A stretch of 64,000 nt of DNA, taken from positions 1-64,000 of the forward strand of contig NZ_MUNO01000006.1 in assembly GCF_002001015.1 (NCBI RefSeq). Reading direction: 5' to 3'. The stretch is from Polaromonas sp. A23 (GTDB lineage Bacteria > Pseudomonadota > Gammaproteobacteria > Burkholderiales > Burkholderiaceae_C). The notes under the pieces were generated by a model, which was not told the origin of the DNA, searched no databases, and saw only the letters and a list, made by a program, of their open reading frames with translations. Position numbers and translations under genes: made by a program. How positions within the stretch are numbered: position 1 is the first letter of the stretch; each line of letters begins with the position of its first letter. Positions 25,164-47,639 of this stretch are shown piece by piece.

Positions 25164-25745
25164 TCAGCCGCCGGCGCGGACGCCGCGGCGCTGCATCATG
25201 TCCTGGCTCATGGCTTGCAGGTCCTCCCCGGCCAGCACCGCCTGCGCGGCAGGGTAGGCTAGCTTGTCTTCGTCCATCAGGTGCCGTCCGTACAGTGCGC
25301 TGAAGCGCTCGAGTACCGCAGTCTGGGCGGGCAACAGTGGCGCCCAATCGGTGGCCGAACTTTCGGCAATGGCCTGCAGCACGCTGCGCGCAGGGGGCCA
25401 CGCCGCTTCCATATCCCGGTGGTCCTGCAGGAGGCGCTGCACCAGGGCGCGCAGGCCGGCATCCGGCCCGGCGAGCAATGGCGGGAATACATGCAACTCT
25501 TCGTCCTGGTGATGCAGCGGTGCGGCAAGGTCAAAGTAACGCATCACGTCACGCGCCGCCTGGCGCGCCGAATCGTCGCGGCCGTGTTCAAGCAAGTGCT
25601 GTTGCAGACGTGCCAGCAGCGCGAGCATGCGCTCCACCCGCTCGTGGCAGGCGGCGAGCATGTCGAAAGGCGCCTCGAACCCGGCGCCCGGTGCGTGCAC
25701 ACCGGGCAGGGACGCAGGCTGCACGACCCGGCGCACCACCCCCAT
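25164..25745 (-). CDS. Hemerythrin-like (HHE) domain protein
   Basis: A 193-residue soluble protein with the helical HHE cation-binding pattern: an N-terminal His in MLAACHERVERML, HHQDEELHVFP near residue 85, HRDMEAAW near residue 115 and HLMDEDKLAYP near residue 160. These residues would bind a di-iron centre that can hold O2 or NO. It starts one nucleotide after the stop of the preceding small gene and is the last gene of the long nitrate-respiration set. A role in NO or oxygen handling is inferred from the position behind nnrS and nar genes. The start at MGVVRRVV is chosen for coupling; its ribosome-binding site is weak. Confidence 0.85.
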   Translation of the reverse strand: MGVVRRVVQPASLPGVHAPGAGFEAPFDMLAACHERVERMLALLARLQQHLLEHGRDDSARQAARDVMRYFDLAAPLHHQDEELHVFPPLLAGPDAGLRALVQRLLQDHRDMEAAWPPARSVLQAIAESSATDWAPLLPAQTAVLERFSALYGRHLMDEDKLAYPAAQAVLAGEDLQAMSQDMMQRRGVRAGG

Positions 25746-25746
25746 G

Positions 25747-26151
25747 TCAGCCGAACTGCACCGGTTGCCCCTGCGGGTCAAACGGAATAAACGCGCCGAT
25801 CTTGCCTTGCTTGATGGACTCGACCATGCGCTGCAGCGGCTCCTCGGCGTCTTCGGTGGTCGGTGCGCGATTCACCGAGCCCGACATGGCCGCGGCAAAC
25901 ACCAGCCCCCAGTTGTGGCCAAACTGGCGGGACTCCTGCACCAGCGCGGCAAACGAGCTCAGATCCTCCGGGCGCTTGTCGACACACATCAGCGGGACCA
26001 GCGCGCCGCCCTGGCCGGCCTCAAAACGTTCGCGTTGCACCGGCGAGCTGTCCTCGGGCAGCTCGACACCGGTAAATACAAACAGCAGGCGCTGCGGTTC
26101 GGGTTGTGCGCGGGCGGCCTGCAGCAGGTCGTCAAAGCTCAGAATGTCCAT
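25747..26151 (-). CDS. Conserved small protein of unknown function, near nrdJ
   Basis: A 134-residue soluble protein starting MDILSFDDLLQAARAQPEPQRLLFVF. It is acidic overall, with segments GQGGALVPLMCVDKRPEDLSSFAALVQESRQFG and WGLVFAAAMSGS that alternate predicted strands and helices. I recall homologues being labelled ribonucleotide reductase subunit alpha because of their neighbourhood, but no reductase motif is visible and that name should not be taken as function. It lies 22 nt after the nitroreductase gene and one nucleotide before the hemerythrin gene, so it belongs to the same transcript. Function unknown. Confidence 0.8.
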   Translation of the reverse strand: MDILSFDDLLQAARAQPEPQRLLFVFTGVELPEDSSPVQRERFEAGQGGALVPLMCVDKRPEDLSSFAALVQESRQFGHNWGLVFAAAMSGSVNRAPTTEDAEEPLQRMVESIKQGKIGAFIPFDPQGQPVQFG

Positions 26152-26173
26152 GGGTTCTATCCAGTCACAGGAA

Positions 26174-26845: not shown

Positions 26846-26855
26846 CAATTCACTT

Positions 26856-28178
26856 TCAACCGGGACGCCCGTCGGCACGCAGGCGCCCGTACCAGTTGCC
26901 CAGACGCACTCCCCACACACCCATGACCCCGGCCCACAACAGGACGGCCGCCAGCAGCAGCCATGCGGCAAAAGCGCTTTGCGCGGCCGCACCAATACGC
27001 AGCAGCGTCGCCGCCTGAAGCAGCCAGAACAGGGTCCATACCAGCCGGTCTGCCACCAGTGCACGCCCGCTGTGACCACAGGACACGCGTGTCACCATGG
27101 CCAGCATCAGCGAGGCCAGGCAGCCCATGGTCAGGGCATGCAGCGCGCCAAGCGGCAGGACGGGGGCGTCCTCCACCAGGCCGAGCAGCTGCGCCACACC
27201 ACCCAGAACAAGCGCCAGGCCGAACCACAGAAAACCGATGTGCAACATGGCAAGCAGCCGGTTCTTCAAGCTTTGCATAAGCCCCCACACCACGGCCAGC
27301 CAGAGGAAAACACCTCCGGCAGCCAGTTCAAAAACACCGCGCACGGCAGTCCAGGCCGTGCCCCCGGCACCCTGCGACTGGCCATCAAACTCCATCCACA
27401 CGGCGGCCACCTCAACAGCAGCGACAGCCAGCATCAGCCGCAACACCCAGAAGGGCCGCCAGACATCGATGAAAGGCAGGGCGCTGGAGGTGAAAAACGG
27501 AATCATGCGGTGCGCCACCGAAACATACACCACCACGACAAAACCCCACAAACCCGTGAGCATGCAGGCCCGTGCCACGACAGGCGCACCCAGCAGCAGG
27601 CTGAGCGCCAGCCCGGCCAGCGCCAGGCAGCCGACCACGCAGGCCACGCCTATGGTGCGTGCATGCACCTGGTCCTCGACCGGGCTGCGCCGGAGCAGAC
27701 CCCAGAACAGGGCCGTCATCCAGCCCAAGCCGGCTGCAGCCATCGCCAGCCCGACCAGGGCTGTCAAGCCATGCAGATGCGCACCGGCCAGCCACAGCAA
27801 CCAGCCTGCCACCTGAAGCAGCAACGGCACCCGCAGCTGCCGGGGGGCAAGTGGCGGCACGCCCAGCCACTTGGGGCCGGCCGTAAAAAGAAAACCGGAA
27901 AAAAAGAGCGGCAAAAAACCAAAGGTCATCACCGTCCCGTGCACCAGCGAAGGCGACAGCGCGTAAGGCAGGCTCAACGCCGGACTGGCACGGTCCAGCT
28001 GCACCAGCGCCCACCACGCGCCGGCACCTACCAGGACCACCATCGCAAGGAAAAAACCCAGCCGGTGCGGCGCCAGCAACAGATGACTGGCGCGCCAACG
28101 GCGGTCTACCCTGGCACGCTCGCTGGCCGACGGCTTGCCCGGACTCACCCGCAGGGCGATGGCCGGGCGCTCACTCAT
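26856..28178 (-). CDS. nnrS: NnrS-family membrane protein
   Basis: A 440-residue polytopic membrane protein with about 12 hydrophobic segments, matching the NnrS family of haem-copper proteins that protect denitrifying and pathogenic bacteria from NO-related stress. Supporting segments are HRLGFFLAMVVLVGAGAWWALVQ, LVHGTVMTFGFLPLFFSGFLFTAGPKWLG (with His that may bind haem), SVAHRMIPFFTSSALPF and LHALTMGCLASLMLAMVTRVSCGHSGR. The start MSERPAIALRV overlaps the nrdJ stop by four bases (ATGA). It is followed by the nitroreductase gene after 10 nt. Confidence 0.92.
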   Translation of the reverse strand: MSERPAIALRVSPGKPSASERARVDRRWRASHLLLAPHRLGFFLAMVVLVGAGAWWALVQLDRASPALSLPYALSPSLVHGTVMTFGFLPLFFSGFLFTAGPKWLGVPPLAPRQLRVPLLLQVAGWLLWLAGAHLHGLTALVGLAMAAAGLGWMTALFWGLLRRSPVEDQVHARTIGVACVVGCLALAGLALSLLLGAPVVARACMLTGLWGFVVVVYVSVAHRMIPFFTSSALPFIDVWRPFWVLRLMLAVAAVEVAAVWMEFDGQSQGAGGTAWTAVRGVFELAAGGVFLWLAVVWGLMQSLKNRLLAMLHIGFLWFGLALVLGGVAQLLGLVEDAPVLPLGALHALTMGCLASLMLAMVTRVSCGHSGRALVADRLVWTLFWLLQAATLLRIGAAAQSAFAAWLLLAAVLLWAGVMGVWGVRLGNWYGRLRADGRPG

Positions 28179-30601
28179 CCACACACGCCCAGATGGCCGC
28201 ACTGGGTGCAATAGTCGCAACCGTCCTTGCGGATCACGGCGTGGGCACCGCATTCACTGCATTTCTTGCCCGCCATCACCGGCGGTGCAAGCGCCATGTC
28301 AATTTGGGGCTCCATCACGGGTGTTGCGCCGGCAGCATGTTGCCTGGCCCGCCGCGCGATGATGTTCTGCACCGCGTAGGCAATGGCAGCCACTTCAGAG
28401 TCGTGCCACAACGGCACGCGCGTGCCGTCGGCCTTCTCGTAGGTTCCCAGCCGCACCGGGCCACGGTCCCAGGCGACCTTGCGCATGTCGCTGAGCGCAC
28501 GCTCCAGAAATCCACCGCGCGCGGCCAGCGAAAGCATGCGCATGCTGGAGGTGATCCACTGCTGCGACTCGCCGCTCTGCCCCACGGGCATGAAAAATTC
28601 GATGGCACGCTCGACCGTGCCTTCCCCCATGGCGGCCGGCACGGGCAAAAAGGACACCACGATATAAAGCGTCTTGCGCCCTTCCTGCGTCCAGTAATCC
28701 ACCTTTTCTGCCATCGCCGACAACGCGCCCTTGGGACGGCTTTCGATCACTGTGCGCATCGGGTCCACGGCAGGCGTTGCCGCCGGCGTGGCTGCGGGAT
28801 CCGCATGGGTTTCGAGCACCGAACCGAGGATGGCGTTGGGCCGGTAGGTGGCCAGGCCCTTGAGCTTGGCGCGCCAGGCCTGCTGGTACAGGCCCTTGAA
28901 ATCTTCGTACGCGTAGTCGGCCGGCACATTGACGGTCTTGGAGATCGCCGTGTCCACAAACGGTTGCACCGCTTCCATCATGCCAATGTGGCTGTCGGCA
29001 GACATCTCAAGCGCCGAAACAAAGTAGCCGGGCAGCTTGTCCACATTCCCGCCGAGCTCGCGGTACAGCCGCCACGCATGGTCTTCGACCGCGTATTCGG
29101 TGGTGCTGCCGTCGGACTCGCGCTTCTTGCGCCGGTACATCCAGGAGAACGGTGGCTCGATGCCGTTGGATGCATTGTCGGCAAACGCCAGACTGACAGT
29201 GCCAGTGGGTGCAATCGACAGCAGGTGACTGTTGCGGATGCCGTTCGCACGGATGGATTGCTGCAATGCGGCTGGCAACCGGCTGGCAAAGGTGCCTGCC
29301 GCGAGGTAGCCATCGGCATCGAACTTCGGAAACGCGCCTTTTTCCTTTGCCAGCGCCACGGATGCGGCGTAGGCTGTATCGCGCATGCTCACAGCAATGC
29401 GCGCCGCCATCTCGCGGCCTTCGGGTGCGTCGTAGCGCAGGCACAGCATGGCCAGTGCATTGCCCAGGCCGGTGAAACCGACACCGATGCGGCGCTTGGC
29501 GGCGGCCTCGGCCTGCTGCTGCGGCAAGGGCCAGAAGGTCACGTCCAGCACGTTGTCGAGTGCGCGCACCTGGGTGGTCACTGATTTGGTGAAAGCCTCG
29601 AAATCGAAATCAGGCACACCATTGAAGCCGAAGGGGTAGCGCACAAAACGCGTGAGAATGATGGGGCCGAGGTCGCAGCAGCCGTAAGGCGGAAGCGGCT
29701 GTTCGCCGCAAGGATTGGTCGCCGCAATCTCTTCACAATAACGCAGGTTGTTGTCCTGGTTGATGTGGTCCAGGAACAAAATGCCGGGCTCGGCGAAGTC
29801 GTAGGCCGAGCGCATGACGGTGTCCCACAACTCGCGCGCCGCGACGGTCTGATAGACCCACAAGCCATCGGCACGCTGAAACGCGCCCTGCTCCATCAAC
29901 GGGGCACCGGGCTTGGCCTTGTGCACCAGTTCCCAGGGCTGGTCTTCGGCCAGCGCCTGCATGAACGCGTCCGGCATGCCAACCGAGACGTTGAAGTTGT
30001 TCCAGCGCCCGGGCGTGCGCTTGGCGGTGATGAATTCGTGCACGTCCGGGTGGTCGATGCGCAGCACGCCCATCTGCGCGCCGCGCCGCGAACCCGCGCT
30101 TTCCACGGTGGAGCAGGACTGGTCAAAGACGTTGATGTAGCTGCAGGGCCCAGAGGCCATGGACGCGGTGCCCTTGACCTCGGCGCCGCGTGGTCGAATG
30201 CGTGAAAAATCGTAACCCACGCCGCCACCGCGCCGCATGGTTTCGGCCGCTTCGCGCAAGGCCTCGTAAATGCCGGGATAACCGCCGTCATCCATGCCTT
30301 GGATGCAGTCGCCAACGGGCTGCACAAAGCAGTTGATCAGGGTGGCCTGGATGGTCGTGCCGGCCGCGCTCATGATGCGGCCAGCGCCTATGGCGCCGGT
30401 GTGCAGGTTCTCAAGGAACAGTGCCTCGTACCTGGCGCGTTCCGCTTCCGTCTCGACCGAGGCCAGGGCCCGGGCCACGCGCCGATACAGGTCTTCCACA
30501 CCGGTCTCGCCGGGTTTGAGGTATTTTTCCTTCAGCACGTCGTGGCTGATGGGCTGGGTGGCCGTCAGATCCTGAGGCCGGCCAAACTGATCGCGTTTCA
30601 T
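28175..30601 (-). CDS. nrdJ: Adenosylcobalamin-dependent (class II) ribonucleotide reductase
   Basis: An 808-residue class II ribonucleoside-diphosphate reductase, which uses B12 instead of a di-iron tyrosyl or glycyl radical and therefore works with or without oxygen. Seen in sequence: NCFVQPVGD and RRGGGVGYDFSRIRPRGA in the N-terminal third, NPCGEQPLPPYGCCDLGPI near residue 295 (catalytic Cys and Glu), MYRRKKRESDG, and a C-terminal Cys-rich tail of the form CSECGAH...CDYCTQCGHLGVCG that resembles a zinc ribbon and can re-reduce the active site. Its ATG overlaps the nitronate monooxygenase stop, and its stop overlaps the nnrS start. Embedding in the nitrate set fits dNTP supply during anaerobic growth. 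Confidence 0.95.
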   Translation of the reverse strand: MKRDQFGRPQDLTATQPISHDVLKEKYLKPGETGVEDLYRRVARALASVETEAERARYEALFLENLHTGAIGAGRIMSAAGTTIQATLINCFVQPVGDCIQGMDDGGYPGIYEALREAAETMRRGGGVGYDFSRIRPRGAEVKGTASMASGPCSYINVFDQSCSTVESAGSRRGAQMGVLRIDHPDVHEFITAKRTPGRWNNFNVSVGMPDAFMQALAEDQPWELVHKAKPGAPLMEQGAFQRADGLWVYQTVAARELWDTVMRSAYDFAEPGILFLDHINQDNNLRYCEEIAATNPCGEQPLPPYGCCDLGPIILTRFVRYPFGFNGVPDFDFEAFTKSVTTQVRALDNVLDVTFWPLPQQQAEAAAKRRIGVGFTGLGNALAMLCLRYDAPEGREMAARIAVSMRDTAYAASVALAKEKGAFPKFDADGYLAAGTFASRLPAALQQSIRANGIRNSHLLSIAPTGTVSLAFADNASNGIEPPFSWMYRRKKRESDGSTTEYAVEDHAWRLYRELGGNVDKLPGYFVSALEMSADSHIGMMEAVQPFVDTAISKTVNVPADYAYEDFKGLYQQAWRAKLKGLATYRPNAILGSVLETHADPAATPAATPAVDPMRTVIESRPKGALSAMAEKVDYWTQEGRKTLYIVVSFLPVPAAMGEGTVERAIEFFMPVGQSGESQQWITSSMRMLSLAARGGFLERALSDMRKVAWDRGPVRLGTYEKADGTRVPLWHDSEVAAIAYAVQNIIARRARQHAAGATPVMEPQIDMALAPPVMAGKKCSECGAHAVIRKDGCDYCTQCGHLGVCG

Positions 30602-31866
30602 GCTTGTGCTCCTGCAATGGAAGCTGCCGGCCGAATTCCGCCAAGCAGCCATTGCAACAATTCTTGCACCGAACGGATCTGGTCGCCAAACGGCAGGCGG
30701 GCGGCACCACGGAAGAAAAGGCCTTTACGCGCATTGCCATCAAAAGCATGGCCGAGCTGCTGGTCGATGCAGAACTGGCCCATGCTGGCCACGCCATCGC
30801 GCAGGCCACAATGGGCGAGGCAGTCAAACGACATGTTGCATTTGCCCTTGACATGGGCCGCCGCCTGGAGCTTGGGTTCGAGCCGGATGTATTTGTCCAG
30901 CCAGGGGGTACGCACTGCGCGCGCCGGCAGCCCGGCCACGCTGATGAACTCCACCATGTCTTCCGGCTTCGCCTCAGCCAGTACTTTCTTGAATGCGGGA
31001 TCGGCATCACACTCCTGGGTCACGGCAAACGCGGTGCCAAGCTGCACCGCCGACGCACCCAGGGCCTGCAGGCGCAGGATGTCGTCCCTGCAATTGATGC
31101 CGCCGGCGGCAATCAACGGAATTTCGCGTTCGATGCCGGCTGTCTTGAAGAACTCCAGCACTTGGGGAATAACCACATCGAAGTCAAAACGCGTGTCATG
31201 CAGGTCTGCAACTTTGGCTGCACCCAGATGGCCGCCGGCAAGGCCGGGATGCTCGATCACGATGGCATCGGGCAAACGGCCTTTTTTTTGCCACTTGCGC
31301 ACCAGCAATTGCACACCGCGCGCGTCCGACAGGATGGGGATTAACACAGCATTGGGATAGTCCCGCGCCAGCTCCGGTAAATCGAGCGGCAAACCGGCGC
31401 CGACCACCAGCGCATCGGCACCACTGCTCAGCGCCTGACGCACATAGTCCTCGTAGGCACTGAGGGCCTTCATCACATTCACGGCGATCAGGCCGCGGCC
31501 TTGCGCACGCTGGCGTGCCCGACGTATTTCGCGGTCCAGCGCCTCCAGATTGGCGGCATCGATCAATGCGCGGGCATCGGGCTCCTTGTCCAGGTGGCCG
31601 GTTCTGGCCATCAGGTCGGGATGCAGGCGCCGCAGGTCCACGGACGACAAGGTGCCCACGCCACCCAAACGTGCCACTGCCCCGGCCAGACCGCCCGCGG
31701 ATACACATACACCCATACCGCCCTGCACCACCGGAATCAACTCCTTGCCCGCCAGCCGCCACGGCCGAAGGCCCGAATCACGGGCAAGTGTTTGCAGTGC
31801 TGCCGCGGCGACTGCCGGGTCGGCGCCCACCCCGGCGGCCAGGTCAGTTGCTAATGATTTGTCCAT
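30598..31866 (-). CDS. Nitronate monooxygenase / 2-nitropropane dioxygenase family protein
   Basis: A 422-residue FMN-binding TIM-barrel protein of the NPD family. Motifs include IPVVQGGMGVCVSAGGLAGAVARLGGVGTLSS at the N-terminus, ALSSGADALVVGAGLPLDLPEL, VIEHPGLAGGHLGA, IPLIAAGGINCRDDILRLQALGASAVQLGTAF (phosphate-binding) and GLPARAVRTPWL. A C-terminal extension with cysteines (KGKCNMSFDCLAHCGLRDG) is seen, as in a subset of the family sometimes found beside denitrification genes. The start MDKSLATDL overlaps the carbonic anhydrase gene by 23 nt. Substrate is not known; nitroalkane oxidation is the family activity. Confidence 0.88.
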   Translation of the reverse strand: MDKSLATDLAAGVGADPAVAAAALQTLARDSGLRPWRLAGKELIPVVQGGMGVCVSAGGLAGAVARLGGVGTLSSVDLRRLHPDLMARTGHLDKEPDARALIDAANLEALDREIRRARQRAQGRGLIAVNVMKALSAYEDYVRQALSSGADALVVGAGLPLDLPELARDYPNAVLIPILSDARGVQLLVRKWQKKGRLPDAIVIEHPGLAGGHLGAAKVADLHDTRFDFDVVIPQVLEFFKTAGIEREIPLIAAGGINCRDDILRLQALGASAVQLGTAFAVTQECDADPAFKKVLAEAKPEDMVEFISVAGLPARAVRTPWLDKYIRLEPKLQAAAHVKGKCNMSFDCLAHCGLRDGVASMGQFCIDQQLGHAFDGNARKGLFFRGAARLPFGDQIRSVQELLQWLLGGIRPAASIAGAQA

Positions 31867-33393: not shown

Positions 33394-33420
33394 GGAGGGT
33401 CCCTGGTTCAGTGTGAGGGG

Positions 33421-34847: not shown

Positions 34848-34849
34848 GG

Positions 34850-36382: not shown

Positions 36383-39300
36383 GCTGCTTCTCCCATTTGC
36401 TGCACAGCGAACGCTCTGTCGTCATCGCGCGGTGTGTCCAGCCAGTCCACTTTGTCCATCTTGCGCACCACGACAAATTCGTCGCGGTTGGTGCCTATGG
36501 TTCCGTAGTAGTTGAAGCCGTATGAGAGTTGCGCATACCCGCCGATCATGTGGGTCGGCTTGAGCACGATGCGTGTGACCGAGTTGTGGATGCCGCCACG
36601 CTGGCCGGTGATCTCCGAACCCGGGGTGTTGACGATTTTTTCCTGCGCGTGATACATCATGACCATGCCGGGCTTGACCCGCTGGCTGACGACGGCCCGC
36701 GCGGCAATGGCTCCGTTGACGTTGTAGGCCTCGATCCAGTCGTTGTCTTCCACGCCGATGAGCTTGGCGTCATCTTCACTGAGCCAGATGATGGGCCCGC
36801 CCCGGCTCAGCGTCAGCATCAACAGGTTGTCGGTGTACGTTGAGTGAATGCCCCACTTCTGGTGCGGCGTGATGAAGTTCAGCAGTATCTCGGTGTTGCC
36901 GTTGGTACGGATACCGTGCACCCCGGCGGTGGCCTTCAGGTTCACCGGCGGCCGGTAGCTGGCCAGGCCCTCGCCGAAAGCCAGCATCCACGGGTGGTCC
37001 TGGTAGAACTGCTGACGGCCCGTGAGGGTGCGCCATGGGATCAGTTCATGCACATTGGTGTAGCCGGCGTTGTACGACACGGTTTCCGATTCGATACCAC
37101 TCCAGGTCGGTGAGCTGATGATCTTGCGCGGCTGCGCCTGGATGTCGCGGAAGCGAATCTTCTCGTCCTCGCGGTGAAGTGCCAGGTGCATGTGCTCGCG
37201 CCCGGTCTGCTTGCCGAGTGCCGCCCAGGCCTTGACAGCCACGTGGCCGTTGGTTTCAGGCGCAAGCTGCAAGACCATTTCGCAGGCATCGATGTCGCTG
37301 TTGATGCGTGGCATGCCCTGCGTTACACCGGGCTCCGTCACCAGGCCGTTGAGTTCGCCAAGCTGACGCACTTCGGTTTCCGTATTCCAGGCGATGCCCT
37401 TGCCGCCGTTGCCCACCTTGCTGAGCAGGAGGCCGACGGCCGTGAAACGTTTGTAGACGTTGGGATAGTCGCGTTCAACCACCTGCATCTGGGGTGCCGT
37501 CTTGCCGGGCACCAACTCGCACTCGCCGCGCTTCCAGTCCTTGACGTCAAAAGGCTGGGCCAGCTCGCCCGGGCTATCGTGCATCACCGGGGTCAGCACC
37601 ATTTCCTTCTCGACACCGAGATGGCCTTCGCACAGTTCGCTGAATTTCCTCGCGAAGCCCTTGTAGATTTCCCAGTCGCTTTTGGATTGCCACACCGGGT
37701 CCACCGCGGTGGACAGCGGATGGATGAAGGGGTGCATGTCACTGGTGTTGAGGTCGTTTTTTTCGTACCAGGTCGCGGTCGGCAACACGATATCGGAGTA
37801 CAAGCAGGTCGTGCTCATGCGGAAATCGAGCGTGACCAGCAGGTCCAGTTTGCCTTCGGGTGCCTTGTCGTGCCAGACCACCTCCTGGGGCTTGCCTTCT
37901 TCGGCGCCGAGGTCTTTTCCCTGAACGCCGTTGTCCGTACCGAGCAGGTGCTTGAGGAAATACTCATGGCCCTTGCCCGACGAACCGATGATGTTGGAGC
38001 GCCAGACAAACATGTTGCGTGGCCAGTTGTCCGGATGGTCCGGGTCCTCGCAGCTCATCTTGAGCGAACCGTCCTTGAGCGACTTGACGACATAGTCCTT
38101 GGCATCCAGACCCGCGGCCTGCGCGTCCTTGACCACCTGCATCGGGTTGGTCTGCAATTGCGGCGCGCTCGGCAACCAGCCCATGCGTTCGGCGCGCACG
38201 TTGTAGTCAATCATGCTGCCGCCGTAAAGCTTCTTGTCAGCGAGCGGGGACAACACCTCGTCAACGCCGAGCTTCTCGTAGCGCCACTGGTCGGTGTGCG
38301 CATAAAAGAAGCTGGTGGAGTTCATCTGCCGGGGTGGACGGATCCAGTCGAGCGCAAAGGCCAGCGGTGTCCAGCCGGTTTGCGGCCGCAGTTTTTCCTG
38401 GCCCACGTAGTGCGCCCAGCCGCCACCGCTCTTGCCGATGCAGCCGCACATCATCAGCATGTTGATGACACTGCGGTAATTCATGTCACTGTGGTACCAG
38501 TGGTTCATGCCAGCGCCGATAATGACCATGGACCGGCCTTCGGTCTTGTCGGCATTGTCGGCAAACTGGCGTGCAACGGCGATGATCTGGTCGCGCGGCA
38601 CACCGGTGATCTGCTCCTGCCAGGCCGGGGTGTAGGGGGTGTTGTCGTCAAAGTCGGCGGCGGCCAGTTCACCGGGCAAGCCGCGGGGAATGCCGTACTG
38701 CGCGGCCTGCAGGTCGAACACGGTCGCCACCAGGGCCGAACGCTCCTCGCCGGCCTTGCCGAGGGAAATGCGCTGCACCGGTACCGTACGCACCAGCACA
38801 TCACCCTGCTCGTTGTTCTGGAAATGTTCATGGTGGATACCGCCGAAGTACGGAAAGCCGACCTTGGCGCTGTCGGCGCTGGGTGCATCACCCTCCATCA
38901 CCGACAGCTTGAGGGTGACCTCGTCACCCTGGCGCGCCTCCTTGGACTCAAGGTTCCACTGCCCGGCGTCGGCACGGCCGTCCGGACCCCAGCGAAAGCC
39001 GATGGCACCGTGCGGCAGCACGACCTTGCCCTGCGCGTCGAAGGCGACGGTTTTCCATTCGGGGTTGTTCGCCTGGCCCAGCTTGCCGTTGAAGTCTGAC
39101 GCACGCACATAACGGTCCGGCACCATGACAGTCTCGCCGTTTTCCAGCTGATGCTCCTTGAGCATGACCAGCATGGGCAGGTCGGTGTAGCGGCGTGCGT
39201 AGTGGTCGAAGTAGGCTGAGCGCGGCTTGCCGTTGCCGCCGAAATAGAAATCCTTCAGGATTACATGGCCCATGGCCATGGCGACCGCAGCATCGGTGCC

Positions 39301-40197
39301 TTGCTTGGGGTGCAGCCACAGGTCGGACAACTTGGCGACCTCGGAATAGTCGGGCGTGATGGCCACGGTTTTGGTGCCCTTGTAACGGACTTCGGTGAAG
39401 AAGTGCGCGTCGGGGGTGCGCGTCTGCGGCACGTTGGAGCCCCATGCAATGATGAACCCGGAGTTGTACCAGTCAGCCGACTCAGGCACGTCGGTCTGCT
39501 CACCCCAGATTTGCGGACTCGAGGGGGGCAGGTCGCAGTACCAGTCGTAAAAACTCATGCACACGCCGCCAATCAGCGACAGGTAACGCGAGCCCGCCGC
39601 GTAACTGACCATGGACATCGCCGGAATCGGTGAAAAGCCGATGATGCGGTCGGCGCCGTGCTTCTTGATCGTGTGAACGTTGGAGGCCGCAATGATCTCG
39701 TTAACCTCGTCCCAGCTGGAACGAACAAAGCCGCCAAGGCCGCGCACACTCTGGTAGTCGCGCCGCTTGACGTCGTCCTGCACCACGGCCGCCCAGGCCT
39801 CCACCGGCGGCAAAGTCAGGCGCGCCTCGCGCCAGTGTTTGAGCAGGCGCGCACGCACCATGGGGTATTTCACGCGGTTGGCGCTGTAGAGGTACCAGCT
39901 GTAGCTGGCACCGCGCGCGCAGCCGCGCGGCTCGTGGTTAGGCATGTCCCAGCGCGTGCGCGGGTAGTCGGTCTGCTGGGTTTCCCAGGTGACGATGCCG
40001 CCCTTGACATAAATCTTCCACGAGCACGATCCGGTGCAGTTCACGCCATGGGTGCTACGCACGATCTTGTCGTGCGCCCAGCGGTTGCGGTAGGCGTCTT
40101 CCCAGGTCCGGTCTTCGGCGGTGGTGACACCGTGAGCCCCGGAGAAGGACTCCCTGGGGTTGGAAAAGTGACTCAGTCGATCAAGAAAATGACTCAT
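36379..40197 (-). CDS. narG: Respiratory nitrate reductase, alpha (molybdenum) subunit
   Basis: The catalytic subunit of the membrane-bound cytoplasm-facing nitrate reductase, reducing nitrate to nitrite at a Mo-bisMGD centre. The 1272-residue protein has the N-terminal His/Cys [4Fe-4S] site in STHGVNCTGSCSWK near residue 50, the region WGSNVPQTRTPDAHFF containing the Asp that ligates Mo, and the long molybdopterin domains (for example GAGMNHWYHSDMNYR and GRQQFYQDHP). Length is close to E. coli NarG (1247 aa). No twin-arginine signal sequence is evident, which fits the cytoplasmic side. It begins 42 nt after narK2. Confidence 0.98.
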   Translation of the reverse strand: MSHFLDRLSHFSNPRESFSGAHGVTTAEDRTWEDAYRNRWAHDKIVRSTHGVNCTGSCSWKIYVKGGIVTWETQQTDYPRTRWDMPNHEPRGCARGASYSWYLYSANRVKYPMVRARLLKHWREARLTLPPVEAWAAVVQDDVKRRDYQSVRGLGGFVRSSWDEVNEIIAASNVHTIKKHGADRIIGFSPIPAMSMVSYAAGSRYLSLIGGVCMSFYDWYCDLPPSSPQIWGEQTDVPESADWYNSGFIIAWGSNVPQTRTPDAHFFTEVRYKGTKTVAITPDYSEVAKLSDLWLHPKQGTDAAVAMAMGHVILKDFYFGGNGKPRSAYFDHYARRYTDLPMLVMLKEHQLENGETVMVPDRYVRASDFNGKLGQANNPEWKTVAFDAQGKVVLPHGAIGFRWGPDGRADAGQWNLESKEARQGDEVTLKLSVMEGDAPSADSAKVGFPYFGGIHHEHFQNNEQGDVLVRTVPVQRISLGKAGEERSALVATVFDLQAAQYGIPRGLPGELAAADFDDNTPYTPAWQEQITGVPRDQIIAVARQFADNADKTEGRSMVIIGAGMNHWYHSDMNYRSVINMLMMCGCIGKSGGGWAHYVGQEKLRPQTGWTPLAFALDWIRPPRQMNSTSFFYAHTDQWRYEKLGVDEVLSPLADKKLYGGSMIDYNVRAERMGWLPSAPQLQTNPMQVVKDAQAAGLDAKDYVVKSLKDGSLKMSCEDPDHPDNWPRNMFVWRSNIIGSSGKGHEYFLKHLLGTDNGVQGKDLGAEEGKPQEVVWHDKAPEGKLDLLVTLDFRMSTTCLYSDIVLPTATWYEKNDLNTSDMHPFIHPLSTAVDPVWQSKSDWEIYKGFARKFSELCEGHLGVEKEMVLTPVMHDSPGELAQPFDVKDWKRGECELVPGKTAPQMQVVERDYPNVYKRFTAVGLLLSKVGNGGKGIAWNTETEVRQLGELNGLVTEPGVTQGMPRINSDIDACEMVLQLAPETNGHVAVKAWAALGKQTGREHMHLALHREDEKIRFRDIQAQPRKIISSPTWSGIESETVSYNAGYTNVHELIPWRTLTGRQQFYQDHPWMLAFGEGLASYRPPVNLKATAGVHGIRTNGNTEILLNFITPHQKWGIHSTYTDNLLMLTLSRGGPIIWLSEDDAKLIGVEDNDWIEAYNVNGAIAARAVVSQRVKPGMVMMYHAQEKIVNTPGSEITGQRGGIHNSVTRIVLKPTHMIGGYAQLSYGFNYYGTIGTNRDEFVVVRKMDKVDWLDTPRDDDRAFAVQQMGEAA

Positions 40198-40239
40198 TGG
40201 ATTCTCCGGTAAAGCGGTAAAAGCGGGCTCTGCGGCGGG

Positions 40240-41904
40240 TCAGGGGTTTTTGATCTCTGCGCCGCGGCGCAGGTAAAACCACCAGTTCAGCACCAGGCAC
40301 AGGGCATAAAAGATGGCAAAGCCGTACATGGCGTTTTCCGGCGTGCCGGCCTTGATTTGCGCGCCGATGACCACCGGGGCGATGAAGGCGCCGTAGGCGG
40401 CAATGGCCGAGGTCCAGCCCAACACCGGGCCGGCCTGTTGGCGATCGAAAATGACGCCAATCGTGCGGAAGGTGGAACCGTTGCCGATGCCGCTGGCGGC
40501 AAACAACACGATAAACAACACCATGAAGAGTAAAAAATACTCCTCGGGCGTGGCCGACTTGTAGGCCAGAAGCATGACGTAGCCCACGCCTGCCGAGGCC
40601 GCGACCATGACGGCAGAAATAACCTGGGTCACGATGGAGCCGCCCACCTTGTCGGACACCCAACCACCCACGGGGCGAATCAACGCGCCTACAAAGGGAC
40701 CTATCCAGGCGAAGGTCAGTGCCGAGGGCGCGTTGGGATTTTTCAGCACGTGCTGCATGACACCTGCTGCGTCAGGCACATGGCTGATGCCAAAAATCAC
40801 CGTGATGGCCAGCGGCAAGGCCATCGAAAATCCGATGAAGGAGCCGAAGGTCACGATGTACAGCAAGGTCAGCGACCAGGTGTGTTTGTTGCTGAAGATC
40901 GCAAACTGCTTGGTGATGTTTTCTTTCATCGTGCCAAAAGCAGTGAGCTTGAGCACCAGCAAGGTGCTTGCCACAATCAAGGGCATGGCGATCCACATGT
41001 TGAGCAAGCCCAAGCCCGTGGGTTTGGGCAGGTAAAGGTACAGGCCGATGCCTGCCGGCACAAACGACAGCGTGTAGAGCCAGATGATTTTGAGAAAAGC
41101 CGGGATCGTGCCGCCAATGGCGGGAGAAACGGTCTTCAGGTTGTTCATGCCAAAGAAACAGAGGGCCGACAACGGTATCAGCGACAACAGCCAGGCAAAG
41201 CCGGCGTTCTGTATCCAAGTCGGTGTGCCCGCAACAATCTTGCCGAAAATCCAGCCGCTGTCCTTGACCAGCGTGGTCGATTCGCCTGCGAAGCCTCCAA
41301 ACAGACTCAGGGTCATCACCAGCGGTATGACGATCTGCATGGTCGTCACGCCGAAATTGCCCAGTCCCGCATTCAGGCCAAGTGCCGTGCCTTGCAGCCG
41401 CTTGGGAAAGAAGGTGCTGATGTTGGACATGGAGCTGGCGAAGTTGCCGCCACCCACCCCACACCACAAGGCCATCAACTGAAAGGACCACAGTGGCCAC
41501 TCGGGATGCTGCAGCACGATGCCGGTACCGATGGCCGGTGCCAGCAGCATTGAAGTTGTCAGGAAGATGGTGTTTCGCCCCCCGGCCAAGCGGATCAGGA
41601 AAGAGGCCGGAATGCGCATGGTGGCGCCGGCAAGACCCGCAATGGCCGTCAGCGTGAAGAGTTCGGCCTGGGTGAAGGGAAAGCCCAGGTTGAGCATCTG
41701 CACGGTGATGATGCCCCACATGCCCCAGACAGCAAAGCCGCAGAGCAGGCTGGGCACGGAGATCCAGAGGTTGCGGTAGGCAATACGCTTGCCGGTGCTT
41801 TCCCAGAACTGCTCGTCCTCGGGACGCCAATCGGTGATGTCGGCGCCGGAGGAACGCGACTGAAGGGCCGGAATGGCAGCACTCGCTGCGGACTTGGTAC
41901 TCAT
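40240..41904 (-). CDS. narK2: MFS nitrate/nitrite transporter, NarK2-like
   Basis: A 554-residue major facilitator protein of the nitrate/nitrite porter family. It shows the nitrate signature in LWCGVGGGNFASSMSNISTFFPKRLQG near residue 145 and a second one in the C-terminal half, with 12 or more hydrophobic segments. It is longer than E. coli NarK (463 aa), with an N-terminal cytoplasmic extension of about 45 residues (DWRPEDEQFWESTGKRIAYRN), as expected for the type II nitrate/nitrite antiporters found next to narG. It likely imports nitrate and exports nitrite. The gap to narK1 is 28 nt. Confidence 0.92.
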   Translation of the reverse strand: MSTKSAASAAIPALQSRSSGADITDWRPEDEQFWESTGKRIAYRNLWISVPSLLCGFAVWGMWGIITVQMLNLGFPFTQAELFTLTAIAGLAGATMRIPASFLIRLAGGRNTIFLTTSMLLAPAIGTGIVLQHPEWPLWSFQLMALWCGVGGGNFASSMSNISTFFPKRLQGTALGLNAGLGNFGVTTMQIVIPLVMTLSLFGGFAGESTTLVKDSGWIFGKIVAGTPTWIQNAGFAWLLSLIPLSALCFFGMNNLKTVSPAIGGTIPAFLKIIWLYTLSFVPAGIGLYLYLPKPTGLGLLNMWIAMPLIVASTLLVLKLTAFGTMKENITKQFAIFSNKHTWSLTLLYIVTFGSFIGFSMALPLAITVIFGISHVPDAAGVMQHVLKNPNAPSALTFAWIGPFVGALIRPVGGWVSDKVGGSIVTQVISAVMVAASAGVGYVMLLAYKSATPEEYFLLFMVLFIVLFAASGIGNGSTFRTIGVIFDRQQAGPVLGWTSAIAAYGAFIAPVVIGAQIKAGTPENAMYGFAIFYALCLVLNWWFYLRRGAEIKNP

Positions 41905-41932
41905 GATTTTTTCCTTGAAGAAGATGGCCGCA

Positions 41933-43195
41933 TCAGGCCGATGCGCCGCTTGCGTTCGATCCCATGACCTCGGTGCGCCGCACCTCGGTCCAGTACATCC
42001 AGATCAGCGAGACCCAAACAATGCCGTACATGAACATGAAAGCGCTGGAGCGGATGCCCGTCAGGTCCATCAGGCCGCCGAAGATGATGGGCAACACAAA
42101 ACCGCCCAGGCCACCGGCCAGGCCGACAATGCCGCTGATTGCACCGATGTTGGCGCCGTAGTCGTCGCTGATGTACTTGAACACGCTGGCCTTGCCGAAG
42201 GCCCAGGCAATGCCCAGGATGAACATCAGCGCGGTAAAGGTATAGACGTTCAGGCCGATGTGAAAGGTTGCCGGGCCATTGACCGTGAGAATGGTGAAAT
42301 CGGTCTGCGGGTAGGACAGCAGGAAGAGGCAGATCCAGCTGACCCACATCACCCACCAGGTCACGCTGTGCGCACCGTACTTGTCCGACAACACACCGCC
42401 AAAGGCCCGCAGCACGCCCCCGGGCAATGAGAAGCAGGCGGCCAGCAGCGCGGCCACGCGGATGTCGAGGCCAAATTCACCCACGTAGTACTGCACCATC
42501 CAGAGCGACAGGGCCACATAGCCGCCGAACACAATGCTGTAGTACTGGCAGTATTTGAGGACCTTGGGATCTTTCAAGGCCTTGAGCTGGTCGCTGAACT
42601 TGACGTGGCTGGGTACCAGGTGCGAAGGATCGCTGTAACTGAACAGCCAGAACAACACCAGCGCAGCCAGCATGATGACCGCATACACCTGCGGCACCAT
42701 GGCCCAGCCAAAAGCCACCAGCAGCACCGGCGCCACAAACTTGTTGACAGCCGCGCCGGAATTGCCAGCGCCATACACACCCATGGCCATGCCCTGGCGT
42801 TTTTTGGGGAACCAGCGCGCCACATAGGGTGTACCCACCGAGAAAGATCCACCGGCCAGGCCGACAAAAAGGCCGATCACCAGGAAATGCCAGTAGGCTG
42901 TGGCGTAACTCATGAGCCAGATGGCAGGCACCGTGGCGGCCATCAGAAGCGCCATGACGATGCGCCCGCCGTAGCGGTCGGTCCAGATGCCCAGCGGGAC
43001 GCGGATCAGCGAGCCGGTCAGCACCGGCGTGGCCGCGAGCAAGCCGAATTCCGTGGCGTTGAGGTTGAGCATCTTCTTGATCGGAATGCCGATCACGCCG
43101 AACATCATCCAGACCATGAAGCAGACGGTGAAGGCCAGCGTGCTGACAATCAGCACCGACCAGGCCTTCCTTGAATTACCAAGTTCAGAACTCAT
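41933..43195 (-). CDS. narK1: MFS nitrate transporter, NarK1-like
   Basis: A 420-residue major facilitator protein with about 12 hydrophobic segments and the family motif GIWTDRYGGRIVMALLM near residue 80, FVGLAGGSFSVGTPYVARWFPKKRQGMAMGVYGAGN near residue 120 (nitrate signature) and GGVLRAFGGVLSDKYGAH in the second half. Shorter NarK1-type proteins are mostly nitrate/proton symporters used to start respiration. The start MSSELGNSRKAW has a good AGGAGAAAC site. In some relatives NarK1 and NarK2 are fused; here they are separate genes. An FNR-like box lies about 150 nt upstream. Confidence 0.93.
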   Translation of the reverse strand: MSSELGNSRKAWSVLIVSTLAFTVCFMVWMMFGVIGIPIKKMLNLNATEFGLLAATPVLTGSLIRVPLGIWTDRYGGRIVMALLMAATVPAIWLMSYATAYWHFLVIGLFVGLAGGSFSVGTPYVARWFPKKRQGMAMGVYGAGNSGAAVNKFVAPVLLVAFGWAMVPQVYAVIMLAALVLFWLFSYSDPSHLVPSHVKFSDQLKALKDPKVLKYCQYYSIVFGGYVALSLWMVQYYVGEFGLDIRVAALLAACFSLPGGVLRAFGGVLSDKYGAHSVTWWVMWVSWICLFLLSYPQTDFTILTVNGPATFHIGLNVYTFTALMFILGIAWAFGKASVFKYISDDYGANIGAISGIVGLAGGLGGFVLPIIFGGLMDLTGIRSSAFMFMYGIVWVSLIWMYWTEVRRTEVMGSNASGASA

Positions 43196-43345
43196 GCATG
43201 TTTCTCCTGAGACATGGCATGACTGTCGGCTTTTAACGCGCCGCTGAATATCCTCCTTAGGAACAGGAAAACGGCATAAAAGAAACGGCGGCAAACCCGG
43301 CCGTCTCGTCCTGAAGAACTACTGCCGGGTCAAACTGCGCCGGAC

Positions 43346-43359
43346 TTGATTTTTGTCAA
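43346..43359. promoter_or_regulatory. FNR-like box upstream of narK1
   Basis: TTGAC-AAAA-ATCAA on the minus strand differs from the FNR consensus TTGAT-N4-ATCAA at one position. It lies about 150 nt upstream of narK1 and overlaps the narL stop codon. The expected -10 downstream of it is poor (CAGTAGTTC), so the exact start is unclear. Confidence 0.55.
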
Positions 43360-44057
43360 GTCAGGTCGCGGCCAGTCGCGTAAACGGCGGCCTGCACCCG
43401 CGAGCTGAGCTGCAATTTGCGCAGGATGTGCTGGACGTGAATCTTCACCGTGGTCTCCGCAATGTCGAGCTTGCGGGCAATCACCTTGTTGCTGTCGCCG
43501 TTCGCAACCAGCGCAAGCACCTCCCGCTCGCGGGCCGACAGCAGCGCAAGGGCCGAGTCGTCCTGCGTCGGCGCGCTCCCGTTGTGACCCGTCTCCACGG
43601 GGGCGGCCTCCCCGGTCGTGGGCAGTGGGGGTTTGGACCGGAAGGCAGCCACCAGCTTGGTCATCATCTCCGGGCTGACCACCGACTCGCCATCCAGCAC
43701 CTTGATGATGGACTCAGACAAGCTGTCGAGCTCCACGGTTTTGAGCAGATAACCGTCGGCGCCTGCCTGCAGCGCGGTGGCAAGATCGTCTTCGTTTTCA
43801 CTCACCGTCAGCATCAGTATGCGGGCACCGGGCGCTGCATCCTTGAGCGCGGCAATGCCGTCAACACCGAGAACACCAGGCAGGTGGTTGTCGAGCAGGA
43901 CGAGATCCGGTTTACGCCGCTCCACGCAGCGCAGGGCCTCGCCGATATCGCCGGCTTCCCCGGCGACCTCGAAACGCCCGTCCTGCGACAGCAGTGCAAC
44001 CAGCCCGCGACGGAACAGAGTGTGGTCGTCGACCACCAGCAGCTCAATCGGTTTCAC
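43356..44057 (-). CDS. narL: Nitrate/nitrite response regulator
   Basis: A 233-residue LuxR-type response regulator. The receiver has Asp 10-11, phosphoacceptor Asp 56 in LVLLDNHLPG and the Lys in GYLLKTVE; a linker of about 40 residues leads to the DNA-binding domain LSAREREVLALVANGDSNKVIARKLDIAETTVKIHVQHILRKL. The start codon is GTG at 44057. Its partner narX lies 12 nt upstream, and narK1 follows after 160 nt, so it most likely activates the nar genes in response to nitrate. TACYYMT-type NarL sites were looked for near narK1 but none stood out. Confidence 0.94.
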   Translation of the reverse strand: MKPIELLVVDDHTLFRRGLVALLSQDGRFEVAGEAGDIGEALRCVERRKPDLVLLDNHLPGVLGVDGIAALKDAAPGARILMLTVSENEDDLATALQAGADGYLLKTVELDSLSESIIKVLDGESVVSPEMMTKLVAAFRSKPPLPTTGEAAPVETGHNGSAPTQDDSALALLSAREREVLALVANGDSNKVIARKLDIAETTVKIHVQHILRKLQLSSRVQAAVYATGRDLT

Positions 44058-44069
44058 GGTGTTCTTTCT

Positions 44070-45992
44070 TCAACTGGTGTGTGCAGGCAACGCCATGCCC
44101 GGTGACTTCACCGCCATGCCACCACCCACCTCCGGATGCGGCGGCAGCGTCAGCATGACTGTGGTGCCCTGCCCCGCCGCGGAAGCCACCTTGACCTCGG
44201 CACCGATGCGGCTGGCACGCTCGCGCATGATGTTCAGACCTACATGGGAGTCGCCGGGATGTTTGCTGGTGTCAAAGCCGGCGCCATTGTCGTGGACCAC
44301 AAAACGCCAGCGCTCGCCCTTGACCACATCCAGGCCGACTTGTGTGGCGCCAGCATGTTTTCGTATATTGGACAGGGCCTCCTGGAGTACATGCAAGACC
44401 TGAACCTGCACGTCTGAAGGCAGCGGCAGCCCCTGGCCCTGCACCTGCAACTGGGCAGGAAGACCCGTCTGACTCTGGAACTTCTGCAGGGTTTCCTGCA
44501 AGGCTTGCTCGATGTCGTCTGTATTGGTCCGCGTGCGGAAATGAACCAGCAACTCACGAACGTCCCCAATGCTTTCACGCAAGCCGACGTCCAACTCATC
44601 AAGGGTGGCCTGGACCTGCTGCTCCTGGCCGCGCTGCACGGCAGAGCGCAGCAACTGCACCTGGATCTTCAGGAACGCGAGCGACTGTGCGATCGAGTCA
44701 TGCAGGTTGCGCGCCAGCAGTGCGCGCTCTTCCGCCACGGCGGCTTCCCGGTCCAGGGCATCGGCGCGCAGGCCTTCCAGCGAACTGGCCAGATGGCTCG
44801 CCAGCGCGTCCAGCAACTCGGTTTCATCGGCGCTCAGCAGGACAGGTGTGCGAAAGAACAGGTTGAATTCACCCAGCACGCGCTGCTGCAGGCGTATCGG
44901 CACGCTGACCACGCTCTCGTAGCCCACCTTGGCGCAGTGGCGTACTGGCGCTTCGTCGTGACTGAGGATGGGAATCACCCGGGTGCGCGCGTCCGGCTTC
45001 AGGTTGCCACAGGCGCAAGCCCCGGCCAACAGGCTGCGCTCTTCTTCCACGAGGTCTTGCGGGAAACAATCCGTCGCCAGCATCAGGTAGCGCTGGTTGG
45101 CATCGTCTGACCAGCGAACCGCGGCGGCGTCCGCTTTCATCACGCCGCGCACGCGCTGGGCAAAACCGCGCGCCAGCTCGTCAATGCTGCCCGCCTGGGC
45201 CAGGAAGGCACTGACCTTGTACAGCGCCTCCAGCCGCGCGCGCTGCGCCTCGATACGCCGTGTCTTCGCCTCGACCTTGGCTTCCAGCCCTTCGTAAAGC
45301 GACTGTAGCGTCATGGCCATGTGGTTGAAGCCGGCGGCCACCTGGCCAAACTCGTCTACGGCATCAACCTCGACTCGCGTTCTGAAGTCCCCGGACTCCA
45401 GCTTGCGCAAGCTCTCGCGAAGCTGCCCCAAAGGATTGATCACGTACATGTAGCCGGTGTAGAGCATGATGACCGCCCCGCCTATAGCCAGTGCCATCAT
45501 CAGGAGCTGGAACAGGTTCAGGATGGCGGTCAGGCGGGACAGATGCTGCTCGATCACCAGCACCAGGTGGTCGCTCGCCTCCACAAACTCGCCGCCGGCC
45601 TTCAGCAGGGCCTGCGCCTGCGGAGCCGGTTCGGCCAGCCACAGCTGCCGCTGATCACGCCACAGGGACTCGACGTTGGCAAAACGCAAGCGCACCTGGT
45701 CGTCCCACGGCACAAACAGCGGCCGGGACGGATCACCCTCGCGCAGCAGCGCCAGGCTCTCGTCGAACCGAGCCACCAGGCCCTGCAATTCGTTGCGCTC
45801 CACCCCCGCCTGCACCGCGCTGGCCAGGCGCCAGGTCTGCATGCGCATGCGCCCGGCCTCGTTGACAGCCGCCGCGCCTCCCTCCAGCTGCCAGGTCACC
45901 CACAGCGTCAAGCCGATCGACATCAAGGCGACCAACAGCAGGCTCGCGCCTATGCGCATGAGTTTTTTGGAAAGCGAGGCCGTCTGTTGCAT
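44070..45992 (-). CDS. narX: Nitrate/nitrite sensor histidine kinase
   Basis: A 640-residue membrane sensor. A first transmembrane helix (residues 12-34) is followed by the nitrate-binding P-box NEAGRMRMQTWRLA (44-57), a periplasmic four-helix domain, a second transmembrane helix near 165-185, HAMP, a cysteine-containing central GAF-like region (SLLAGACACGNLKPDAR), and the HisKA_3 site ERALLARNLHDSIAQSLAFLKIQ with HATPase motifs HDNGAGFD and HVGLNIMRERA. The architecture is that of NarX rather than NarQ. It phosphorylates NarL, encoded immediately downstream. Confidence 0.95.
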   Translation of the reverse strand: MQQTASLSKKLMRIGASLLLVALMSIGLTLWVTWQLEGGAAAVNEAGRMRMQTWRLASAVQAGVERNELQGLVARFDESLALLREGDPSRPLFVPWDDQVRLRFANVESLWRDQRQLWLAEPAPQAQALLKAGGEFVEASDHLVLVIEQHLSRLTAILNLFQLLMMALAIGGAVIMLYTGYMYVINPLGQLRESLRKLESGDFRTRVEVDAVDEFGQVAAGFNHMAMTLQSLYEGLEAKVEAKTRRIEAQRARLEALYKVSAFLAQAGSIDELARGFAQRVRGVMKADAAAVRWSDDANQRYLMLATDCFPQDLVEEERSLLAGACACGNLKPDARTRVIPILSHDEAPVRHCAKVGYESVVSVPIRLQQRVLGEFNLFFRTPVLLSADETELLDALASHLASSLEGLRADALDREAAVAEERALLARNLHDSIAQSLAFLKIQVQLLRSAVQRGQEQQVQATLDELDVGLRESIGDVRELLVHFRTRTNTDDIEQALQETLQKFQSQTGLPAQLQVQGQGLPLPSDVQVQVLHVLQEALSNIRKHAGATQVGLDVVKGERWRFVVHDNGAGFDTSKHPGDSHVGLNIMRERASRIGAEVKVASAAGQGTTVMLTLPPHPEVGGGMAVKSPGMALPAHTS

Positions 45993-47165: not shown

Positions 47166-47194
47166 GGTCGAAGAGTTTAGCGCCGGTGTTCGAA

Positions 47195-47617: not shown

Positions 47618-47639
47618 GACACGATTTTAATGACTAAAT

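Follow-up and report, generated by a model that had tools for sequence, protein, structure and literature searches.

What does a gene for a ribonucleotide reductase do inside a set of genes for nitrate respiration? The question is raised by a locus of Polaromonas sp. A23 (order Burkholderiales; contig NZ_MUNO01000006.1, positions 1 to 64,000, which stretch of 64,000 nucleotides is hereafter called the window). There, nrdJ, predicted to encode an adenosylcobalamin-dependent class II ribonucleotide reductase (RNR), stands in a run of 16 genes extending on the minus strand from narX to a gene for a hemerythrin-domain protein (45992-25164). Our analysis suggests that the run, which forms an insert in the core gene pair holA and proA, is quite likely an extended nitrate-respiration cluster that would couple nitrate respiration, B12-dependent synthesis of deoxyribonucleotides (dNTPs) and defence against nitric oxide (NO). 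This reading draws on gene content, coupling, conserved linkage, an empty insertion site and the RNR complement of the genome; from these we infer co-transcription, control by FNR-type regulators and NarL, NO defence and a role for a 134-residue protein, here called u134.

Gene content and coupling

The genes of the run are as follows, in the direction of transcription (all on the minus strand):

44070..45992, minus strand: narX-type nitrate/nitrite sensor kinase, 640 residues; PilJ-type sensor, HAMP, GAF, HisKA_3 and HATPase domains; top NCBIfam matches NarQ/NarX, under the cut-offs
43356..44057, minus strand: narL-type response regulator, 233 residues, GTG start; top NCBIfam match NarL (189 bits, cut-off 250)
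41933..43195, minus strand: narK1, nitrate/nitrite transporter, 420 residues; TIGR00886 family, under the cut-off
40240..41904, minus strand: narK2, nitrate/nitrite transporter, 554 residues; NarU/TIGR00886, under the cut-offs
36379..40197, minus strand: narG, 1272 residues; TIGR01580, 2192 bits, over the curated cut-off
34850..36382, minus strand: narH, 510 residues; TIGR01660, 974 bits, over the curated cut-off
34140..34847, minus strand: narJ, 235 residues; TIGR00684, over the curated cut-off
33421..34143, minus strand: narI, 240 residues; TIGR00351, over the curated cut-off
32533..33393, minus strand: ppi, parvulin-type peptidyl-prolyl isomerase (NifM-like), 286 residues; PF00639/PF13616
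31844..32536, minus strand: beta-type carbonic anhydrase (CA), 230 residues; PF00484, CSDSR and HSHC motifs
30598..31878, minus strand: nitronate monooxygenase-family flavoprotein (NMO), up to 426 residues; PF03060
28175..30601, minus strand: nrdJ, predicted adenosylcobalamin-dependent class II RNR, 808 residues; TIGR02504, over the curated cut-off
26856..28178, minus strand: nnrS, 440 residues; PF05940
26174..26845, minus strand: nitroreductase, 223 residues; PF00881
25747..26151, minus strand: u134, 134 residues, unnamed family without Pfam or NCBIfam match, with a distribution that tracks nitrate respiration
25164..25745, minus strand: hemerythrin-domain protein, 193 residues; PF01814

The names narX, narL, narK1 and narK2 are those of the best matches, all of which stay under the NCBIfam cut-offs. 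The genes narG, narH, narJ and narI follow each other in this order, each over its curated cut-off, as expected of a narGHJI operon; NarG contains both the H..C...C motif, which we take to be the Fe-S ligand region, and what is presumably the YCDLPP region around Asp222. Pfam cut-offs are passed by the isomerase (PPIC-type rotamase), the carbonic anhydrase (Pro_CA), NMO, NnrS, the nitroreductase and the hemerythrin-domain protein.

The first-pass annotation of this DNA had counted 15 tightly coupled genes; the actual number is 16, and the coupling is borne out by the junction distances. The first two junctions measure 12 nt (narX/narL) and 160 nt (narL/narK1), the latter being the sole larger gap. 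From narK1 onward, the genes are separated by 1-42 nt (narK1/narK2 28, narK2/narG 42, narH/narJ 2, narI/ppi 27, nnrS/nitroreductase 10, nitroreductase/u134 22, u134/hemerythrin 1) or overlap. All five ATGA overlaps described earlier are present, each of 4 nt (narG/narH, narJ/narI, ppi/CA, NMO/nrdJ and nrdJ/nnrS); the CA/NMO overlap, absent from that annotation, is longer (35 nt, or 23 nt when counted from the second Met codon of NMO). From narK1 on, the run thus shows a common strand, short gaps or overlaps, and gaps free of terminator-like sites, as expected for a single operon.

Linkage of nar genes and nrdJ in related genomes

Conservation of the linkage in related genomes had been set beforehand as a check, and it was found. 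The family sample comprised 299 genomes, with Acidovorax, Hydrogenophaga, Curvibacter, Rhodoferax and Pelomonas included; distances in relatives were taken between the ends of tblastn matches, and the NrdJ type counted is that of 808 residues with a C-terminal Cys cluster, set apart from a longer type of ~1000 residues. NrdJ of the 808 type is present in 83 genomes, narG in 133, and both in 61. In 39 of these 61, representing 23 of 35 genera, narG and nrdJ lie within 25 kb of each other, while random placement would yield ~0.7 such genomes; chance adjacency is hence rejected, as is an oddity of one genome, since the linkage recurs at loci of Polaromonas, Acidovorax, Hydrogenophaga and other relatives. 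Of the 39 linked genomes, 27 have nrdJ downstream of narG and 11 have it upstream, and in one the two genes are oppositely oriented. For the longer NrdJ type, 67 matches were listed: 8 of them are no more than 25 kb away from narG, for 30 narG is located elsewhere in the genome, and 29 belong to genomes without it.

Gene content, regulatory boxes and phylogeny were evaluated for the nrdJ loci of 80 of the 83 genomes (G196, G167 and G051 left out). Two arrangements keep nrdJ beside nar, that is, either after narGHJI-ppi-CA or before narX. The 29 loci with nar first contain ppi (29), CA (23), nitroreductase (19), the hemerythrin gene (18), nnrS (16) and u134 (16), and the order ppi-CA-nrdJ is conserved in many genera. 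The second arrangement is represented by 11 loci; in the three of them for which the nar end was inspected (L130-L132), nitroreductase, u134 and the hemerythrin gene close the cluster. Another 38 loci count as having no nar gene, a class in which some contigs are short and some genomes have narG on a different contig, and L087 and L094 fall into no class. When the three linkage states are mapped onto an NrdJ tree (a quick tree without bootstrap, in which L036 and L057, being short contigs, are unlabelled), 14 changes are required, compared with a mean of 32.3 after shuffling, and the state with nrdJ before narX occurs within a single clade of 14 rows, 11 of which show it and 3 of which do not, corresponding to 2 changes.

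The carbonic anhydrase (31844-32536), found in 23 of the 29 nar-first loci, is a steady member of the cluster.

Insertion site between holA and proA

The run is flanked by two core genes:

46056..47198, minus strand: holA, core gene bordering the insert upstream; TIGR01128
23809..25119, minus strand: proA, core gene bordering the insert downstream; NF001221; located near holA in relatives without the insert

In a genome of the same genus without narG and nrdJ matches (G099), holA and proA are 61 nt apart. Nine holA regions outside the genus were inspected, and none of them holds the nar-nrdJ cluster at this site: proA follows at 55-176 nt in five (G050, G044, G125, G042, G123), at 382-529 nt in two and at 1.7-2.1 kb in two. 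Since holA and proA lie close together in relatives without the cluster, the latter is, as judged from gene order, a block inserted into this core gene pair in Polaromonas. Consistently, among the 80 named-relative loci retained of 409, 21 are from Polaromonas and proA lies downstream in 19 of them, the other two being short contigs; non-remnant nar or ppi genes are found upstream in 16 of the 21 (counted by eye). Between lptE and holA of the window (region 47195-49575), a gene for an Lrp-type regulator (47195-47617) and one for ornithine cyclodeaminase (47729-48895) form another insert in the core run leuS-lptE-holA-proA.

NrdJ and the ribonucleotide reductase complement

The window NrdJ scores 567 bits with TIGR02504 (cut-off 400) and 263 bits with the class I model TIGR02506, below the latter's cut-off of 341. 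It contains NPCGEQ at position 296 with Cys298, as well as Cys91, Cys308/309 and a C-terminal Cys cluster, among which we take the catalytic Cys, the redox Cys pair and the Cys cluster to be represented. With catalytic Cys, Asn and Glu, redox pair and C-terminal cluster all in place, the protein is a predicted adenosylcobalamin-dependent class II RNR.

No match to class III NrdD was found in the genome of the window (G000), which encodes one class I alpha subunit, a CobQ homologue and a copper-containing nitrite reductase of the NirK type, each over its cut-off. NirK is a candidate source of NO; NirS was rejected as such a source, since only a weak match to a propeller fragment was obtained. 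Class I RNRs depend on oxygen. With no NrdD match and one class I alpha subunit, NrdJ therefore looks, given the general properties of the RNR classes, like the sole RNR of this genome able to work without oxygen. Across the family sample, NrdJ or NrdD is present in 126 of 133 genomes with narG and in 67 of 166 without it, where related genomes are not independent observations.

Thirteen loci carry an intein of 380-384 residues inserted directly before the catalytic Cys of NrdJ (TNP/CGEQ; Cys298 in the window protein), namely seven from Polaromonas (L158, L159, L160, L164, L171, L173, L183), three from Acidovorax (L174, L197, L201) and L104, L112 and L114, and L108 and L167 have an insert in NrdJ with a different C-terminal end. 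Furthermore, 9 of 21 Polaromonas loci have a split nrdJ, and others, the window among them, have a whole one.

Candidate regulatory sites

One site of the type bound by FNR, Anr or Dnr lies upstream of narK1:

43346..43359, no strand assigned: FNR/Anr/Dnr-type site TTGACAAAAATCAA, ~150 nt before narK1 and overlapping the narL stop codon

The site fully matches TTGAY-N4-RTCAA and has one mismatch to TTGAT-N4-ATCAA. No terminator-like site was found within the intergenic gaps on the minus strand between 25000 and 44999, a region that contains 29 such sites on both strands (mean after shuffling 17.1); a simple promoter scan of the same region yielded one promoter-like site, which lies inside narK1. 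Within 400 nt upstream of the window nrdJ (L033), no Anr/Dnr-type box was found. Paired NrdR boxes before nrdJ are absent from all 40 nar-side loci; this says little, because 29 of the 30 other nrdJ loci lack them too, and NrdR control was thus not used to discriminate nar-side nrdJ. In the genome of the window, two NrdR-box-like sites, 31 nt apart, are located ~110-155 nt before the class I alpha open reading frame (L002:4334-4380, contig C14), with 3 and 4 mismatches to the NrdR-box consensus.

Comparison with known systems

The narXL-narK1K2GHJI clusters of Pseudomonas and Burkholderiales comprise regulators, two transporters, narGHJI and a parvulin-type isomerase. All of these are shared by the window, whose run continues, however, with CA, NMO, class II RNR, NnrS, nitroreductase, u134 and hemerythrin. 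The same order, narGHJI-ppi-CA-nrdJ-nnrS-nitroreductase-u134-hemerythrin, is encountered in Acidovorax and Hydrogenophaga, mostly without NMO; there, no proA follows in the stretch inspected, so that the insertion site differs from that in Polaromonas.

The physiological dependence implied by such an arrangement is already known in principle. According to the available part of one report (PMC2864759), the anaerobic RNR NrdDG of Cupriavidus eutrophus H16 is required for full denitrification, and addition of B12 relieves the loss of NrdDG, which the authors attribute to NrdJ replacing it. Whereas NrdDG serves in that organism, the genome of the window has no NrdD match. The same source lists narGHJI of C. 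metallidurans CH34 as Rmet_2074-2077 and nrdJ as Rmet_2130, so they do not form one run. The class II RNR of P. aeruginosa is induced in anaerobiosis through Anr/Dnr, as stated in the portion available of PMC4860495; there, nrdJ has its own promoter with an Anr/Dnr box, whereas the window nrdJ is embedded downstream of nar with no such box within 400 nt. Among the papers listed in literature searches, judged mainly from titles and abstract openings, none gave an account of nrdJ inside a nar cluster, which is a weak indication of absence.

Proposed function and alternative explanations

If the run acts as proposed, NarX and NarL would sense nitrate, and the FNR-type site before narK1 would probably start a transcript of ~18 kb, extending from narK1 to the hemerythrin gene. 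This transcript would yield the nitrate transporters, NarGHI with its chaperones, and NrdJ. Together with B12, NrdJ would let the cell, in which class I is the sole other RNR found and class III was looked for without a match, make dNTPs during nitrate respiration; NnrS, hemerythrin and nitroreductase may handle NO and other reactive nitrogen products, and u134 may serve nitrate respiration itself.

Several observations weigh against so unified a view. Among the 83 genomes with NrdJ of the 808 type, 22 have no narG match, and in 22 further ones narG lies elsewhere or on another contig. Neither NrdJ nor NrdD is present in 7 of the 133 genomes with narG. NMO occurs in just 6 of the 29 nar-first loci, once as a 21% remnant, and is thus a variable member. 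In an order-wide sample of 200 genomes read by eye, no co-directional linkage of 808-type nrdJ with narG was seen outside the family. NrdJ of the 808 type or nearly full length was found there in G361, G437, G307, G415 and G453, with a fragment in G478; G437, G307, G415 and G453 also have narG, none of them co-directionally (divergent at 3 kb in G415), and in G336 narG and a nrdJ of the longer type point the same way, 12.6 kb apart (likewise read by eye). The cluster is hence mainly a trait of the family. As for its control, an FNR-type site before narK1 was detected in only 2 of 18 narK1 loci and in none of the other 16 within 400 nt upstream (a 260-nt scan gave the same 2 of 18); besides the window, L096 has a one-mismatch counterpart at nearly the same place, and the idea that the site is common to relatives was rejected. 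Such sites are likewise rare in the 400 nt upstream of nrdJ (1 of 40 nar-side loci, 1 of 10 with nrdJ before narX, 3 of 30 others). Where nrdJ precedes narX, 6 of 11 loci have an FNR-type site between the two genes, each 48-49 nt before the narX match. Finally, two Polaromonas loci (G274 and CG9_12) have lost nar and keep nrdJ. In G274, which has no narG match, codon 25 of narK1 is joined to codon 44 of the CA gene, the nar genes between having gone, and an asparaginase-like open reading frame (recognised by eye) stands between the CA remnant and an intact nrdJ, which precedes proA. The CG9_12 locus (L170; only the locus was inspected) shows similar remnants and retains nrdJ, u134 and the hemerythrin gene. 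Between these two loci, nrdJ has a nonsynonymous divergence (dN) of 0.027 and a synonymous divergence (dS) of 0.336, i.e., a ratio of 0.080, inside the span of 0.052-0.157 for the other Polaromonas pairs listed, and on this measure it is under purifying selection also at loci without nar.

One alternative is that of two separable modules, narXLK1K2GHJI-ppi-CA and a low-oxygen group nrdJ-nnrS-nitroreductase-u134-hemerythrin, the latter driven by a promoter of its own. Convenience or joint transfer would have brought them together, and each would be regulated and selected separately. The 22 genomes with nrdJ and no narG match, the two loci which lost nar and kept nrdJ with a dN/dS of 0.080, the FNR-type sites between nrdJ and narX, and the division of the cluster at ppi/CA in G200, a genome of the same genus (holA-narX-...-ppi and CA remnant-NMO-nrdJ-nnrS-nitroreductase-u134-proA on separate contigs), all favour it. 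The ATGA overlaps across the junctions of the window, the location of the sole promoter-like site inside narK1, the ppi-CA-nrdJ order kept in many genera, and the 30 of 77 genomes in which u134 has narG but, among the matches listed, no RNR gene in the surrounding 10 kb argue against it, so that we regard full separation as possible yet rather doubtful. It is very unlikely that the linkage reflects the mere horizontal spread of one denitrification island, with nrdJ as a passenger devoid of a role in nitrate respiration. While such spread would agree with an insert between core genes, with the 14 linkage-state changes in the NrdJ tree, and with a megaplasmid version in Variovorax that has moaA and a stress protein gene between CA and nrdJ, a passenger would hardly be expected to stay adjacent after the move to a position before narX, to be under purifying selection even at loci that have lost nar, or to belong to an enzyme category, the RNRs independent of oxygen, that is found in 126 of 133 genomes with narG.

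The loci G274 and CG9_12, the split in G200, and the FNR-type sites between nrdJ and narX thus suggest that nrdJ is useful without nar and that the parts can be run from different promoters elsewhere; judged from these loci, the cluster is modular and its parts are separable. The first-pass proposal of one functional programme is therefore limited to a conserved association and, in the arrangement of the window, probable co-transcription. It is partly supported: the conserved linkage (39 of 61), the lack of an NrdD match, the class I alpha subunit, CobQ and NirK fit it and accord with known physiology, while the nrdJ genes without narG, the two nar-less loci, the internal FNR-type sites and the scarcity of NMO do not, and co-transcription stands as a prediction. 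The extended nitrate-respiration cluster set out above is the reading that we prefer on the whole.

The 134-residue protein

In RefSeq, u134 is named 'ribonucleotide reductase subunit alpha'. At E 0.1, neither Pfam nor NCBIfam, RNR models included, yields a match for the window protein, and 38 relatives match no RNR model of Pfam. Seven Pfam names, each obtained for one of the 38 members (E 0.05-0.17), were taken as chance, as were four PDB sequence matches: two, to designed helical proteins, extend across 27 residues (E 0.0006 and 0.006), and no stretch in them passes alone; the other two have E 1 or more. The protein is well conserved: mean column identity over the 38 diverse rows is 57%, F6, Q20, L22, G49, P53, F67, E73, W81, F85, G116 and G128 are invariant, and a CVDK motif nearly so.

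Its distribution follows that of nitrate respiration, with presence in 74 of 133 genomes having narG and in 3 of 166 without it (odds ratio 68), two of these three being 70-78% complete. Since 59 of the 133 lack it, nitrate reduction as such does not depend on this protein. In 45 of 77 genomes, the gene and narG are no more than 10 kb apart; in 10, both narG and every RNR gene among the matches listed are over 25 kb away or on a different contig. On plasmids of Paraburkholderia and Caballeronia, it follows narGHJI-isomerase-transporter, and on a Shewanella plasmid a major facilitator superfamily transporter gene beside narL; for the surrounding 12-16 kb, the gene table, which is incomplete, contains no RNR.

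Could u134 be an RNR accessory subunit after all, as its name implies, and not a protein of nitrate respiration? It is within 3 kb of nrdJ or nrdD, thus of both RNR classes, in at least 36 of 77 genomes (a lower bound, since the longer NrdJ type is represented by the 67 matches listed and draft contigs separate neighbours), and stands divergently beside the longer NrdJ type in five. Against this, 41 of 77 have no RNR within 3 kb among the matches listed, the plasmid copies accompany nar genes, no RNR model is matched, and u134 occurs almost exclusively with narG even though 66 genomes without narG have NrdJ. Hence, we consider such a subunit unlikely; the RNR label is, by these comparisons, unsupported, the RefSeq name looks like a propagated error, and u134 is best seen as a nitrate-respiration-associated protein. 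Proximity to class III nrdD (within 3 kb) was recorded in nine of the 77 genomes (G007, G036, G060, G159, G160, G182, G227, G238, G258), and one Polaromonas locus (L166) has, upstream of the CA remnant and pointing the other way, a further u134-like gene that is only distantly similar (38%).

Implications

Of what is new here, three things are of most use, namely how widely nar and nrdJ are linked, where the cluster is inserted, and u134. It is tempting to speculate, albeit tentatively and with somewhat more doubt than conviction, that u134 founds an unnamed nitrate-respiration family in Burkholderiales, acting perhaps in the assembly or protection of NarGHI or by connecting the oxygen-independent RNR with nitrate or NO status, and that the nar-nrdJ cluster is at the same time a selected unit to 'respire and replicate without oxygen', kept through rearrangement. 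With u134, attention is drawn to a common protein which has an unsupported database name and the distribution of nitrate respiration. More generally, the gene order described here would make visible, in many genera, the dependence of nitrate respiration on an RNR that is independent of oxygen, and it would tie denitrification by these environmental bacteria, in a testable manner, to B12.

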